A DNA stretch of 64,000 nt from Pseudomonas sp. G2-4. Lineage in GTDB: Bacteria; Pseudomonadota; Gammaproteobacteria; Pseudomonadales; Pseudomonadaceae. Location: the NCBI RefSeq assembly GCF_030064125.1, contig NZ_CP125957.1:2790001-2854000 (forward strand). The letters run 5' to 3'. Under the pieces are notes generated by a model, which ran no database searches, was not told where the DNA came from, and saw only the letters and a list, made by a program, of their open reading frames with translations. This document shows positions 12,001-48,500 of this stretch, piece after piece. The stretch's first letter is position 1. The number at the start of each line of letters is the position of its first letter. Both the position numbers and the translations under genes were made by a program.

Positions 12001-15000
12001 TCGAGGCGCAGGTGGCGATGCAGCCCGACGCTGTGGCGGTGGTATTCGAGGATTGCACCCTGACTTACGGCGAACTCAACGCCCAGGCCAATCAGCTCGC
12101 CCATCGCCTGCTGTCGCTGGGCATTCGTCCGGATGATCGGGTCGCGATCTGTGTCGAGCGTGGCCTGGACATGATTGTCGGCCTGCTGGGTATCCTCAAG
12201 TCCGGCGCTGGTTATGTACCGCTGGATCCCGCCTATCCGGCGGAACGCATCGCCTACATGCTCGAAGACAGCACGCCCGTGGCAATCGTGGTGCATGCCG
12301 CCACCCGTGAGCGGCTGGCCGAAGAGTCCGCGCGGGTGATCGACCTCGATGGCGCTGCGTTGCATAACCAGTCGGAGGCCAATCCTCAAGTGCCAGGCCA
12401 GACGTCTTCGCAACTGGCCTATGTCATCTATACCTCGGGCTCCACTGGCTTGCCCAAGGGCGTGATGGTCGAGCACCGCAACGTCGCCCGCCTGTTCTCG
12501 GCGACGCAATCCTGGTTCGATTTCGGCGCGCAAGACGTGTGGGCCTTGTTCCACTCGTTTGCCTTCGACTTCTCGGTCTGGGAAATCTGGGGCGCACTGA
12601 CCCATGGCGGCCGCTTGTTGGTGGTGCCACAGCTGGTCAGCCGTTCACCCCAGGACTGTTATGCGCTGATCTGCGAAGCCGGTGTCACGGTGCTGAACCA
12701 GACGCCAAGTGCCTTCCGCCAGTTGATTGCGGCCCAAGGCGAAAGCCACCTGAGCCACCAGCTGCGCCAGGTTATTTTCGGCGGTGAAGCCCTGGACACC
12801 GGGATTCTCAAGCCGTGGTATGCCCGCGAGGCCAATGCCGGGACGCAACTGGTCAACATGTACGGCATCACCGAAACGACGGTGCACGTGACCTACCATG
12901 CCCTTGAAGCGGCCGACGCACAGCGGGTCGGCGTCAGCCCCATCGGCAAGCGCATTCCCGACCTGCAGCTGCATGTGCTCGACGCCCGGCGCGAGCCGGT
13001 GCCAGTGGGTGTGGTCGGTGAAATGTACGTGGGTGGCGTGGGTGTGGCGCGGGGTTACCTGAATCGTCCCGAGCTTAATCGGGAACGCTTTATCTTCGAC
13101 ACCTTGAGCGGTCGTGAAGGCGCGCGTCTGTACCGGACCGGCGACCTTGGACGCCGGTTGGCCGACGGCAGCATCGAATACCTGGGCCGCAACGACGACC
13201 AAGTGAAGATCCGTGGTTTCCGTATCGAACTGGGCGAGATCGAAGCGACGTTGGCGGCTTGCGAAGGTGTCAGCGAGGCGGTGGTCATTGCCCGTGAAGA
13301 CGAGCCGGGCGATAAGCGCCTGGTGGCCTATGTCATTGCCACAGAAGGCGCAGCACTCTCGGCCAGCGATCTGCGGACCCAGTTGCTCGGGTCGTTGGCC
13401 GAGTACATGGTGCCGAGCGCGTTCGTGGTCCTTGCCGCATTCCCGTTGACCACCAACGGCAAGCTCGACCGCAAGGCCTTGCCGGCGCCGGATCAGTCGT
13501 CGGTGGCGGCCCGGGAATACGCAGCGCCGCGAGGCGACGCCGAGACCGTCATCGCCGCGATCTGGCAGGACCTGCTGGACCTTGAGCGGATCGGTCGACA
13601 CGACAACTTCTTCGAGCTGGGTGGGCATTCGCTGCTGGCGGTGAAACTGATCGAACGCATGCGTCATGCAGGTTTGAGTGCCGACGTTCGGGTGCTGTTC
13701 GGCCAACCGACACTGGCGGCCCTGGCCGCTGCGGTCGGCGGGCACACGGAAGTCGTGGTGCCGGTCAATCGGATTGCCGCGGACTGCCAGCGGATCACGC
13801 CGGACATGTTGCCGCTGGCGACCCTGAGCCAGGACGAGATCGACCGCGTAGTGACGATGGTCCCCGGTGGCGTCGGCAATGTGCAGGACATCTACGCCTT
13901 GGCGCCGTTGCAGGAGGGAATCCTGTATCACCACCTGGCGGCCGCCCAGGGCGATCCCTACCTTCAATACGTGATGTTCGCGTTCGACAGCTTCACGCGC
14001 CTGGATAATTTCACCCAGGCGCTGCAAGCCGTCGTCGCGCGGCACGACATTCTGCGCACCGGCGTCCTCTGGGAAGGCCTGGCCGAGCCCATGCAGGTGG
14101 TCTGGCGTGAGGCGCGCCTGATGGTCGAGCCGGTCGAGCTGGATCTGGCGGCGGGCGATGTTGCCACGCAGCTGCATCAGCGTTTTGACCCCCGGCACTA
14201 TCGCCTGGACCTCCGCCAGGCACCGCTGATGCGGGTCGCCTATGCACAAGACCCAGCGAACCAACGCTGGGTGGGCATCCTGCTGTTCCATCACCTGGTG
14301 GACGACGCCACGTCGTTGGCAGTGCTGTCCGCCGAGATCGAGGCGCACCTGCTCGGCCAGGCGCAACGCTTGCCAGCATCGGTGCCGTACCGCAACTACG
14401 TGGCCCAGGCCCGTTTGGGTGTGAGCCGCGAGGCCCATGAACAGTTTTTCCGCGACATGCTCGGCGACGTCGACGAGCCGACATTGCCCTTCGGCTTGCA
14501 GGATGTGCAAGGCGATGGCAGCGGGATCGAGGAGATTCGCCAGGAAGTCGAGGCCGACCTGAGTCGACGGTTACGGACCCAGGCCCGTCAGCTCGGTGTG
14601 AGCGCGGCGAGCTTGTATCACCTGGTCTGGGCGCAAGTGCTGGGCAAGGTGTCAGGCAAGGACGATGTGGTGTTCGGCACCGTGCTGGTTGGGCGGATGC
14701 AGGGCGGCGAGGGCGCCGACCGGGCACTGGGGATGTTCATCAATACGCTGCCGTTGCGGGTGAGCCTGGGACAAACCGCAGTCCGTGCCGGCGTGAAGGC
14801 GACCCACGCCCGACTGACCGCGTTGCTGGGCCACGAGCATGCCTCGCTGGTGCTGGCGCAACGTTGCAGCGGCGTAGAGGCACCGACGCCCTTGTTCAGT
14901 GCCTTGCTCAACTACCGTCACACCGGCGCCATCACTTCCACTGAGGCGCTGTCAGCCTGGGACGGTATGCAGGTGCTCGGCGGCGAAGAACGGACCAACT

Positions 15001-45500: not shown

Positions 45501-48500
45501 CAAGTGCCGGGCCTGGATTCCAGTCATCTGGCCTATGTGATCTACACCTCGGGCTCCACTGGCTTGCCCAAGGGCGTAATGGTCGAACACCGCAACGTCG
45601 CCCGGCTGTTTTCGGCGACGCAGCCCTGGTTCGACTTTGGCCCGCAGGACGTCTGGGCCTTGTTCCACTCGTTTGCCTTCGACTTCTCGGTCTGGGAAAT
45701 CTGGGGCGCATTGACCCAAGGTGGCCGCTTGCTGGTGGTGCCGCAATGGATCAGTCGTTCACCGCAAGAATGTTATGCGCTGATATGCGAGGCCGGCGTC
45801 ACGGTGCTGAACCAGACGCCAAGCGCCTTCCGCCAACTGATTGCGGCCCAGGGCGAAAGCGAGCTGAACCACAACCTGCGGCACGTGGTTTTCGGCGGTG
45901 AAGCCCTGGAAACCGGGATTCTCAAGCCGTGGTACGCCCGCGAAGCGAATGCCCGGACGCAACTGGTCAACATGTACGGCATCACCGAAACGACGGTGCA
46001 CGTGACTTACCGAGCACTGTGCCCGGCCGATGCACAGTTGACCGGCGTCAGCCCCATTGGCAAGCGTATCCCCGACCTGCAACTGTACGTGCTCGACGCC
46101 CAGCGTGAGCCGGTGCCGGTGGGTGTGGTGGGCGAGATGTATGTAGGCGGTGCGGGTGTCAGTCGCGGTTACTTGAACCGTGACGAACTGACCACCGAAC
46201 GTTTCCTGGACAACCCGTTCAGCACCGCGCCGAACGCGCGAATGTACAAGACCGGTGATCTTGGCCGCTGGCTGGCCGACGGCAGCGTCGAATACCTGGG
46301 GCGCAACGACGACCAGGTGAAGATCCGGGGCTTCCGTATCGAGCTGGGTGAGATCGAGGCGAGCTTGGTGGCTTGCGAGGGTGTCAGTGAAGCGGTGGTC
46401 ATCGCCCGTGAAGACATGCCGGGTGATAAGCGCCTGGTGGCCTACGTGATTGCCAAGGAAAACGTGCAACTGTCAGCTGCCGACCTGCGCAGCCGTTTAC
46501 TGGCTTCGCTGGCGGATTACATGGTGCCCAGCGCTTTTGTCACGCTGGCCGCGTTCCCGCTGACCACCAACGGCAAGCTCGACCGCAAGGCATTGCCGGC
46601 ACCGGATCAGTCGGCGGTGATCAGTCGTGAATATGAAGCGCCGCAGGGGCCGGTCGAAGCGGCCATTGCCCGGATCTGGCAAGACTTGCTCAACGTCGAG
46701 CAGATAGGACGTCACGACAACTTCTTCGAATTGGGCGGCCACTCGCTGTTGGCCGTGAAACTGATCGAACGCATGCGCCAGGTCGACCTGGCCGCCGATG
46801 TGCGCGTGCTGTTCGGCCAGCCGACCTTGGCCGCATTGGCCGCAGCCGTGGCCGGCGTCAGGGAAATCGTGGTGCCGGGCAACGCAATCCCGGACGGCTG
46901 CACGCGGATCACCCCGGACATGTTGCCCCTGGCCGACCTGGACCAGAACGCCATCGACCGGATCGTGGCGACGGTGCCGGGCGGCGTGGCGAATGTGCAG
47001 GACATCTACGGGTTGGCGCCATTGCAGGAGGGGATTCTCTACCATCACCTTGCCGCAGAGCAGGGCGATCCGTATGTGTTGCAGGTGCTGTTCGGCTTCG
47101 ACAACCGCGAACGGGTGCAAGCCTTTGCCCATGCCTTGCAGAGCGTGGTGTCGCGTAACGACATCTTGCGCACCAGCATGGTCTGGCAAGGCCTGGAAGC
47201 TCCGGTGCAAGTGGTATGGCGCCATGCAACCCTGGCCCTTGAGGAGATCGAGGCAGACCCGGCCGCAGGCGATGTGGTGCAGCAGCTGCACGCGCGCTTC
47301 GACCCGCGTCATTACCGCCTCGACATCGCCCAGGCGCCGCTGATGCGCCTTGCTTATGCGCAGGACGCGGCGAATCAGCGCTGGGTCGGCATGCTGTTGT
47401 TCCATCACATGGCGCTGGATCACACGGCGCTTGAGGTGGTGGTGCATGAAATGCAGGCCAGCCTTCTGGGCGAGGGGCAATTGCTCTCGCCGGCGGTGCC
47501 GTATCGCAACCACGTGGCCCAGGCACGGCTTGGGGTCAGCCGTGAGCAACACGAAACTTTTTTCCGTGAGATGCTCGGCGATATCGACGAACCCACGCTG
47601 CCGTTCGGCCTGCAGGATGTGCAGGGCGACGGCAGCGGGATCGAGGAGGCGCACCAGGACGTGGACGCCGCGTTGGCTCAGCGTCTGCGTGCGCAGGCCC
47701 GTCAGCTCGGCGTGAGCGCGGCGAGCCTGGTCCACCTGGCCTGGGCGCAAGTGCTCGGCCGGGTGTCGGGCCGTGAAGAGGTGGTGTTCGGCACCGTGTT
47801 GATGGGACGGATGCAGGGCGGCGAAGGGGCTGATCGGGCCTTGGGCATGTTCATCAATACGCTGCCATTGCGCGTCAGCGTCGGCGCCCTAGGTGCCCGC
47901 GCCGGGGTCAGGTCGACCCACGGGCGGCTATCGGCCTTGCTGGGACACGAGCATGCCTCGCTGTCCCTGGCCCAGCGTTGCAGTGGCGTGCCGGCTTCGC
48001 TGCCCTTGTTCAGCACCTTGTTGAACTATCGGCACAGTGCCGCTGAAGCGGTGCCCGAGCATGCCGTCTCGGCCTGGCACGGCATTCAAACCCTGAGCAT
48101 GGAAGAACGGACCAATTATCCGTTGTGCCTGAACGTGGACGACCTGGGCGAAGGCTTCCGGCTCACGACCCAGGCCGTGGTCGAAGTCGGTGCCCTGCGT
48201 GTCTGCGGTTATATGCACACGGCGCTGGAAAGCCTGGTGGCAGCGTTGGAGCAGACGCCGGACCGGGCATTGCGTGAGTTGTCGATTGTCCCGGTGGCGG
48301 AGCGCGAACGGTTGCTGGTGACATTCAATGCCACGCAAGCCGAATACCCGCAGGAGCAGACCATCCACGGGCTGTTCGAAGCCCAAGTGTTGCGCACCCC
48401 GGATGCCGTGGCGGTACGCCACGGCCGGCAACAGTTCAATTATCGCGAGCTCAACGGGCTCGCCAACCGCCTGGCCCATTACCTGCGCAAGCAGGGTGTG

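Follow-up and report, generated by a model that had tools for sequence, protein, structure and literature searches.

Putative dehydrating condensation domains of the dual C/E type in corpeptin-type peptide synthetases of Pseudomonas

Results

The locus and its condensation domains

The DNA analysed here (the window) is a 64,000-nucleotide stretch, positions 2790001-2854000 of the 6.65 Mb genome of Pseudomonas sp. G2-4, and the subject of this study is a group of condensation (C) domains in its nonribosomal peptide synthetase (NRPS) genes. The sequence identifies the window as the 3' portion of a corpeptin-type Pseudomonas synthetase. The specificity codes of the 18 modules that have their specificity part in it, computed twice from the aligned adenylation (A) domains, read Ala-Val-Val/Ile-Thr-Hse-Val-Val/Ile-Ser-Ala-Ala-Ala-Val-Thr-Thr-Ala-Dab-Ser-Val (Hse, homoserine; Dab, 2,4-diaminobutyric acid), an order that fits corpeptin residues 5-22. 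Residue numbers are product positions in corpeptin numbering, and the window C domains are numbered C2-C19. The genes and domains on which the argument depends are the following open reading frames (ORFs) and domains.

3..17006, + strand: NRPS ORF1, from an ORF and motif scan in whole-genome context; its 5' end is not in the window; it covers the last part of the residue 4 module and those for residues 5-9
17003..30175, + strand: NRPS ORF2; modules for residues 10-13
30408..61457, + strand: NRPS ORF3; modules for residues 14-22, with tandem thioesterase (TE)-like motifs at 59952 and 60849
12435..13214, + strand: A domain (specificity part) of the Thr8 module, code DFWNIGMVH
13749..15218, + strand: C6, which accepts Thr8; motif HHLVDDATS at 14289
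25604..26383, + strand: A domain (specificity part) of the Ser12 module, code DVWHMSLVD
26906..28375, + strand: C10, which accepts Ser12; motif HHLVDDVTS at 27446
42288..43067, + strand: A domain (specificity part) of the Thr17 module, code DFWNIGMVH
43602..45071, + strand: C15, which accepts Thr17; motif HHMVDDATS at 44142
46863..48332, + strand: C16, ordinary dual C/E domain (HHMALDH), which accepts Thr18, a residue left intact in the known peptide, and so serves as an internal negative control
56469..57938, + strand: C19, ordinary dual C/E domain (HHMALDH), which accepts Ser21, likewise left intact in the known peptide, and so serves as a second internal negative control

The 18 window C domains comprise 13 of the dual condensation/epimerisation (C/E) type with the motif HHxxxDH, two LCL domains (HHIVSDG) and three, C6, C10 and C15, with HHxVDD[AV]TS. 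Domains with HHxxDD[AV] are called xDD domains below. An earlier note, made from the letters of this DNA, had given the three motifs with coordinates that proved exact, as did its count of 13 HHxxxDH domains. It had named Thr module 5, Ser module 9 and Thr module 14 as their donors and had stated that the C domains after Thr module 15 and Ser module 18 keep HHMALDH; the A-domain codes and the motifs of C16 and C19 agree with both statements. Thus, a Thr or Ser donor precedes 3/3 xDD domains and 2/13 other dual domains (Fisher p = 0.018), an association that within the window is suggestive only.

Compared with the dual motif, the xDD motif has lost the last His, which is replaced by Ala or Val, and has gained an Asp just before the invariant Asp. 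The residues peculiar to C6, C10 and C15 within the window are Ala66, Asp185, Ser189, Ala195 and Ile197 (domain numbering). Among 46 xDD domains, Asp185, Ser189 and Ile197 were invariant, while Ala195 was found in 23 and Ala66 in 31; Ala66 was rejected as a diagnostic change on this count. His187 is present in 208 of 210 ordinary dual domains (after 17 LCL-like rows had been dropped) and in 0/46 xDD domains. The earlier note had also regarded the strings IYALAPLQEG and HDILRTGV as special to the three domains. This did not hold, as C19, which follows the intact Ser21, has both.

C6 is least like the ordinary dual domains at residues 161-200, with a mean identity of 52%, against 90% to C10 and 72% to C15. 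Over residues 201-480, C6 is 75-95% identical to C2.

Match of xDD domains to the dehydrated residues of known peptides

Each Thr or Ser module that contributes a dehydrated residue to the known product, and no other Thr or Ser module, is immediately followed by an xDD domain. A domain of this kind was expected after Thr1 before the region upstream of the window was fetched, and the C domain found there has HHLIDDATS; the next two C domains have HHIALDH and then HHMALDH. The whole corpeptin-type cluster thus carries xDD domains after Thr1, Thr8, Ser12 and Thr17. The linear chain of corpeptin A contains four dehydro residues, one ΔAla and three ΔAbu (PMC4282715), so that one Ser and three Thr donors match its one dehydroalanine (Dha) and three dehydrobutyrines (Dhb). 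The medipeptins of P. mediterranea EDOX, which are close relatives, have Dhb1, Dhb8, Dha12 and Dhb17 together with Thr18 and Ser21, residues 18-22 resting on one fragment formula in that source (PMC8477016).

The same correspondence, which the earlier note had proposed for the window, held at the Thr1 site and in clusters of other types. In the 22-module syringopeptin-22 (SP22)-like cluster of strain KUIN-1, whose A domains 3, 17 and 22 were not readable, xDD domains follow Thr1, Thr9, Thr14 and Thr18 (4/4), and LDH motifs follow Thr15 and Ser16 (2/2). SP22 has Dhb at 1, 9, 14 and 18 together with Thr15 and Ser16 (PMC6433849), in line with the four ΔAbu given elsewhere (PMC4282715). In P. congelans, residue 9 is Ala and is followed by an ordinary C domain; xDD domains occur after Thr1, 14 and 18. 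The fuscopeptin-like clusters of P. gingeri and of strain QS1027, the latter split over contigs, carry xDD domains after Thr1 and Thr14 and none after Ser9, Thr15 and Ser18. Fuscopeptins have two ΔAbu (PMC4282715); the two clusters are known here from their genes alone. The fragmentary tolaasin-like cluster of strain BCA17 reads Thr-xDD-Thr-LDH.

Survey of donors across Pseudomonas clusters

A scan of genome contigs gave at least 66 Pseudomonas loci, and further fetched regions were added to the collection. Loci that repeated others or lacked a useful NRPS were skipped (L001-L010, L082-L090, L094-L096, L117-L119, L123 and L124), as were domains truncated at the end of a reading frame, and identical domains entered the count as one. 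The 51 distinct xDD[AV] domains collected have Ala (48) or Val (3) at the last position of the motif, so that the HHxxxDH feature is absent from all of them. All 43 readable donors were Thr or Ser (39 Thr, 4 Ser; 8 unread). Meanwhile, a Thr/Ser donor preceded 39 of the 197 readable HHxxxDH domains (n = 273, 76 unread). The difference gives a Fisher p of 6e-25, a descriptive value, since the sequences are related and it is not a probability for independent events. Phylogenetically, the independent xDD pairs number 1 to 3, which leaves a sign test without power. The acceptors of the xDD modules vary (Thr 20, Ala 12, Hse 7, Pro 7, Gly 1, unread 4).

Natural variants of the motif and a second lineage in mycin clusters

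Among the domains with Ala or Val at 187 followed by Thr-Ser, Asp185 was found in 51, Asn185 in 7 (xND domains) and Ser185 in 2. The readable donors of the Asn185 domains are Ala (2) and Leu (1), with 4 unread. Both Ser185 domains follow Ser1 of syringomycin-type clusters, a residue that we take to be L. They are peptin-like domains with HHLVSDATS and were seen in P. congelans (L130) and KUIN-1 (L146); the mycin clusters of the source genome and of genomes G532 and G533 have an LCL domain at this place. The closest relative of the Ser185 domain that was tested is the Asn185 domain of P. congelans, followed by ordinary dual domains rather than xDD domains, so that the motif patch may move in small conversions. 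Since Ser1 of syringomycin forms the lactone (PMC9659194), its hydroxyl is kept. The HHLVSDATS domain may be a dual-type domain that neither epimerises nor dehydrates. For the Asn185 and Ser185 variants, then, dehydration of the donor is either impossible, as far as donors could be read, or does not take place.

The source genome has a neighbouring mycin cluster with two Thr modules, the second of which (numbered residue 7 by analogy) is followed by a C domain with HHLVSDNVT; two other dual domains of that cluster have HHMISDHVS and HHMASDHVT. A HHLxSDN domain follows Thr7 in 9/9 mycin clusters examined, namely the source genome's own, four found by searching 59 genomes with the SDN domain and four from genomes with peptin clusters. 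Syringomycin has Dhb at position 7 (PMC6433849). The change common to the SDN and xDD domains is the loss of the last His of HHxxxDH.

It was also observed that mycin clusters with Thr6-Thr7 modules contain an additional, weakly C-like domain with HHLLADR[TA]S, which comes after the LCL domain and ahead of the A domain for Thr6. It is present in L012/L013 (source genome, approximately 2728-2766 kb), L101, L103, L105, L107, L152 and L155 and is possibly an interface-type domain.

Phylogeny and the probable place of the switch

The trees were built with the motif columns omitted, as 95-row quick trees with a mixture model and an LCL outgroup and as FastTree trees of 261 domains; none contained rows of the modified-amino-acid clade (CmodAA). 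In the N-lobe 95-row tree, the main xDD and xND clade (15 + 5 rows with all five xND rows; support 95, starred) lies inside the Pseudomonas peptin dual clade (60 rows; 97, starred). Three xDD rows of the Thr1 type form a clade of their own (99, starred), also inside the peptin dual clade. A single clade for all xDD and xND domains was not rejected, the tree held to it being 15 log units better (p of the approximately unbiased test, p-AU, 0.7). The smallest group larger than the xDD/xND clade (support 86, not starred) adds nine dual domains, the donors of which are Thr (5), Ala/Val (3) and unread (1). This hints that the xDD domains may descend from a C/E domain that handled Thr.

The C-lobe 95-row tree places the 15 xDD rows with C2 (96, starred), without the xND rows. 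In the FastTree analysis of 261 rows, the separation of xDD/xND from the rest needs one change in the N-lobe versus five in the C-lobe; in the 95-row trees, the xDD label needs three changes in each lobe. Free recombination of whole C-lobes was considered and was not borne out by the equal counts in the 95-row trees. The SDN domains form a clade (100, starred) beside the mycin dual domains (95, starred, N-lobe). Joining the xDD and mycin SDN domains in one clade was 33 log units worse, though not rejected at 0.05 (p-AU 0.078).

According to the earlier note, a tree with the three VDD domains among ordinary dual C/E domains would count against dehydration. They do fall there, but this position is what the note's own evolutionary idea predicts and is no argument against dehydration. 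Its proposal that a dehydrating domain evolved from an epimerising dual C/E domain gains support from the trees.

A match with 60% identity on a Methylocystis plasmid has HHLIDDNTT after an A domain with the code DSALIAEVW, a code also present at module 5 of the source genome's mycin cluster. A TauD/TfdA dioxygenase gene lies just upstream. A second C domain of the same locus has HHLAMDHTT; its part before residue 37 looks out of frame and was excluded. From residue 37 onward, the IDDN and AMDH domains differ only at 73, 74, 78, 180, 184, 185, 187 and 191-193. The pair may show where the switch lies, not what it does.

Across 80 genomes of the family of genome G453, five places in four genomes were found, all with HHxxGDH. 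In L091, a Methylocystis bryophila C domain seems to change frame where it begins (approximately 24839-25050); the listed gene ends at 24991 and none is listed after it, for which either a sequencing error or a disrupted gene may account. A dual-type C domain with the degraded core HQFIFDHST (L120, 17247) occurs in a Methylocystis iwaonis cluster that has a siderophore receptor gene next to it.

Relation to known types of condensation domains

The xDD domains most resemble the dual C/E domains of Pseudomonas lipopeptide synthetases (arthrofactin type). Those of the window are 60-76% identical to the 13 neighbouring dual domains, and the trees place them in the same clade. The N-terminal motif HHxxxxxGD, retention of which the earlier note had pointed out, is present in 51/51 xDD domains. 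The median distance from the T domain to the HH motif is 224 residues for both xDD and xxDH domains versus 192 for the LCL group. They differ from dual C/E domains in having Ala/Val for the last His, Asp185, Ser189 and Ile197, in that all readable donors are Thr/Ser, and in that the donor residue is dehydrated in known products rather than D. Epimerisation of the donor is expected to be absent, because the corresponding product residues lack an alpha stereocentre. By sequence, then, the xDD domains are members of the dual clade that fail its HHxxxDH feature.

CmodAA domains (AmbE-C2, AlbB-C2/C3, LgnD-C2, McyA) share with the xDD domains the predicted reaction, in which a Ser/Thr (or beta-hydroxy) donor residue is dehydrated before condensation. 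Their published features are a strict DG in HHxxxDG and a [K/R]SVLLAAH helix before motif C5 (PMC11342130). The strict DG occurs in 0/51 xDD domains, and the [K/R] and His of the helix are replaced by Ala and Trp in 50/51 (alignment by eye; one not located). In pairwise comparisons with Protein Data Bank (PDB) chains, C6 (469-residue query) scored 77 bits with AmbE and 68 with McyA, and C2 (490-residue query) scored 81 and 84; PvdL and McyB scored above AmbE and McyA with both. AmbE was not among the best five PDB chains of two part-domain searches. The published helix pattern gave eight matches in 369 genomes, with no C domain recognised at those loci, and bases 1-148000 of the 165693 of Pantoea plasmid pPag2 held no large NRPS gene of the wanted CmodAA kind. 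Membership aside, the xDD domains probably work like CmodAA domains.

The C domain of NocB module 5 (nocardicin) is similar in adding a dehydration step on the donor, but it is a special member of the DCL clade and makes a beta-lactam. It has an extra His, HHHxxxDG. Closer in idea are the dehydrating C/E-clade domains already proposed for stenothricin and stendomycin in section 3.4 of a 2023 review (PMC10880069), where a C domain that follows Dhb is assigned to the C/E clade. That proposal is earlier and independent, concerns organisms other than Pseudomonas and gives no motif in that section; the likeness drawn here is one of description.

Other features of the locus

The remaining features of the window are as follows.

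49986..51455, + strand: C17, LCL domain (HHIVSDG)
53196..54665, + strand: C18, LCL domain (HHIVSDG)
61536..64000, + strand: MacA-like (61536-62687) and MacB-like (62690 to the window end) export genes, from ORFs and sequence

The export genes 3' of the NRPS ORFs are presumably of the MacA/MacB family, the usual neighbours of such lipopeptide clusters. No match to Rfam families was found in the window. The five Ala-specific A domains (A3 motifs at 2760, 28850, 32619, 35838 and 48810) are nearly identical over the aligned 260 residues, which points to duplication or gene conversion in the recent past. Another lipopeptide-like NRPS cluster of the same genome (4160500-4190000; L014, L015) has four dual-type C domains that were read, all with DH.

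Discussion

We propose, with a probability of roughly 0.83, that the xDD domains are dual C/E-type domains converted into dehydrating condensation domains. The second core His would remove the alpha proton of the Thr- or Ser-loaded peptidyl donor, as in dual C/E domains. Without His187, the carbanion would not be reprotonated to a D residue; in the peptin lineage, Asp185 would instead protonate the leaving beta-hydroxyl, water would be lost and the dehydropeptide would then be condensed with the next residue. In the SDN lineage, another residue would have to act as the acid for the hydroxyl. For these exact roles of residues 185 and 187, we see about an even chance. The switch most likely lies in a short stretch around the motif, a location to which the motif itself, the local identity profile and the Methylocystis pair all point.

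Several observations weigh against this proposal. The peptin xDD domains may share one origin, in which case the independent donor events are few, and the match of positions uses the known peptides of relatives, not the products of the window strain or of KUIN-1. Dehydration cannot be read from a missing last His alone, since two HHMVLDNMA domains follow Ala donors. The SDN domain stands after Dhb7 without Asp185, which is thus not needed for every dehydration. The donor code of the Methylocystis IDDN domain is His-like, not Thr/Ser.

The association with dehydrated positions would be the same if the xDD domains were gatekeepers that, instead of epimerising, accept a donor already dehydrated in trans or by another domain. 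We nevertheless consider gatekeeping unlikely. In the characterised AlbB and AmbE, dehydration is the work of the C domain and precedes condensation or transfer (PMC10880069). The ORFs of at least 250 codons on the coding strand of the window are NRPS and export genes, no search having been made for a separate dehydratase gene in the 5' flank or among ORFs of fewer than 250 codons. The Asn185 variants follow aliphatic donors (3/3 readable), as would be expected of a residue with a catalytic role rather than of one lining a pocket for a flat residue. We are equally sceptical that the motif marks any beta-hydroxylated donor, or a lack of epimerisation, with dehydration decided elsewhere. The Methylocystis IDDN domain, with its dioxygenase gene and possibly a beta-hydroxy-His donor, would suit such a role, as would the HHMVLDNMA and xND domains after non-hydroxylated donors; in the corpeptin and SP22-like clusters, however, intact Thr/Ser donors are followed by LDH and not by xDD, so the motif there separates dehydrated from intact hydroxy residues. 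That the xDD domains belong to the CmodAA clade, with dual-like features gained by recombination, predicts the same reaction but seems very improbable: the AmbE and McyA scores are no better with C6 than with the ordinary dual domain C2, the helix residues and the DG are missing, and the trees, with the taxon sampling given above, put the xDD domains among Pseudomonas dual domains.

If the conversion proposed here is correct, dehydrating C domains may have arisen from C/E domains more than once (peptin xDD, mycin SDN and perhaps Methylocystis IDDN), with the last His lost in every case. Dehydration would then in effect be an interrupted epimerisation governed by a switch of about ten residues near the motif, and the motif would read out D, dehydro or L for each residue. 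This wider scheme is tentative, and we rate it somewhat below an even chance.

The idea of a dehydrating C/E domain has been proposed elsewhere, and the Pseudomonas xDD domains are a variant of it. That the motif rule is absent from print is not established: the string HHxxDD occurs in PMC10204066 (solanimycin) and PMC8739492, and HHxxxDH occurs in PMC10531924, which deals with idle epimerisation in Pseudomonas E/C domains. The passages of the literature that were found name no enzyme making Dhb or Dha in syringomycin, syringopeptin, tolaasin, fuscopeptin or corpeptin, and a study of the P. syringae complex from 2022 states that dhAbu was beyond the reach of its bioinformatic prediction (PMC9769872). 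With a short motif rule, dehydro residues would become predictable from genomes. The natural near-isogenic pairs and single-position variants would also be of use in asking how one fold chooses between a peptide bond alone, epimerisation and dehydration.

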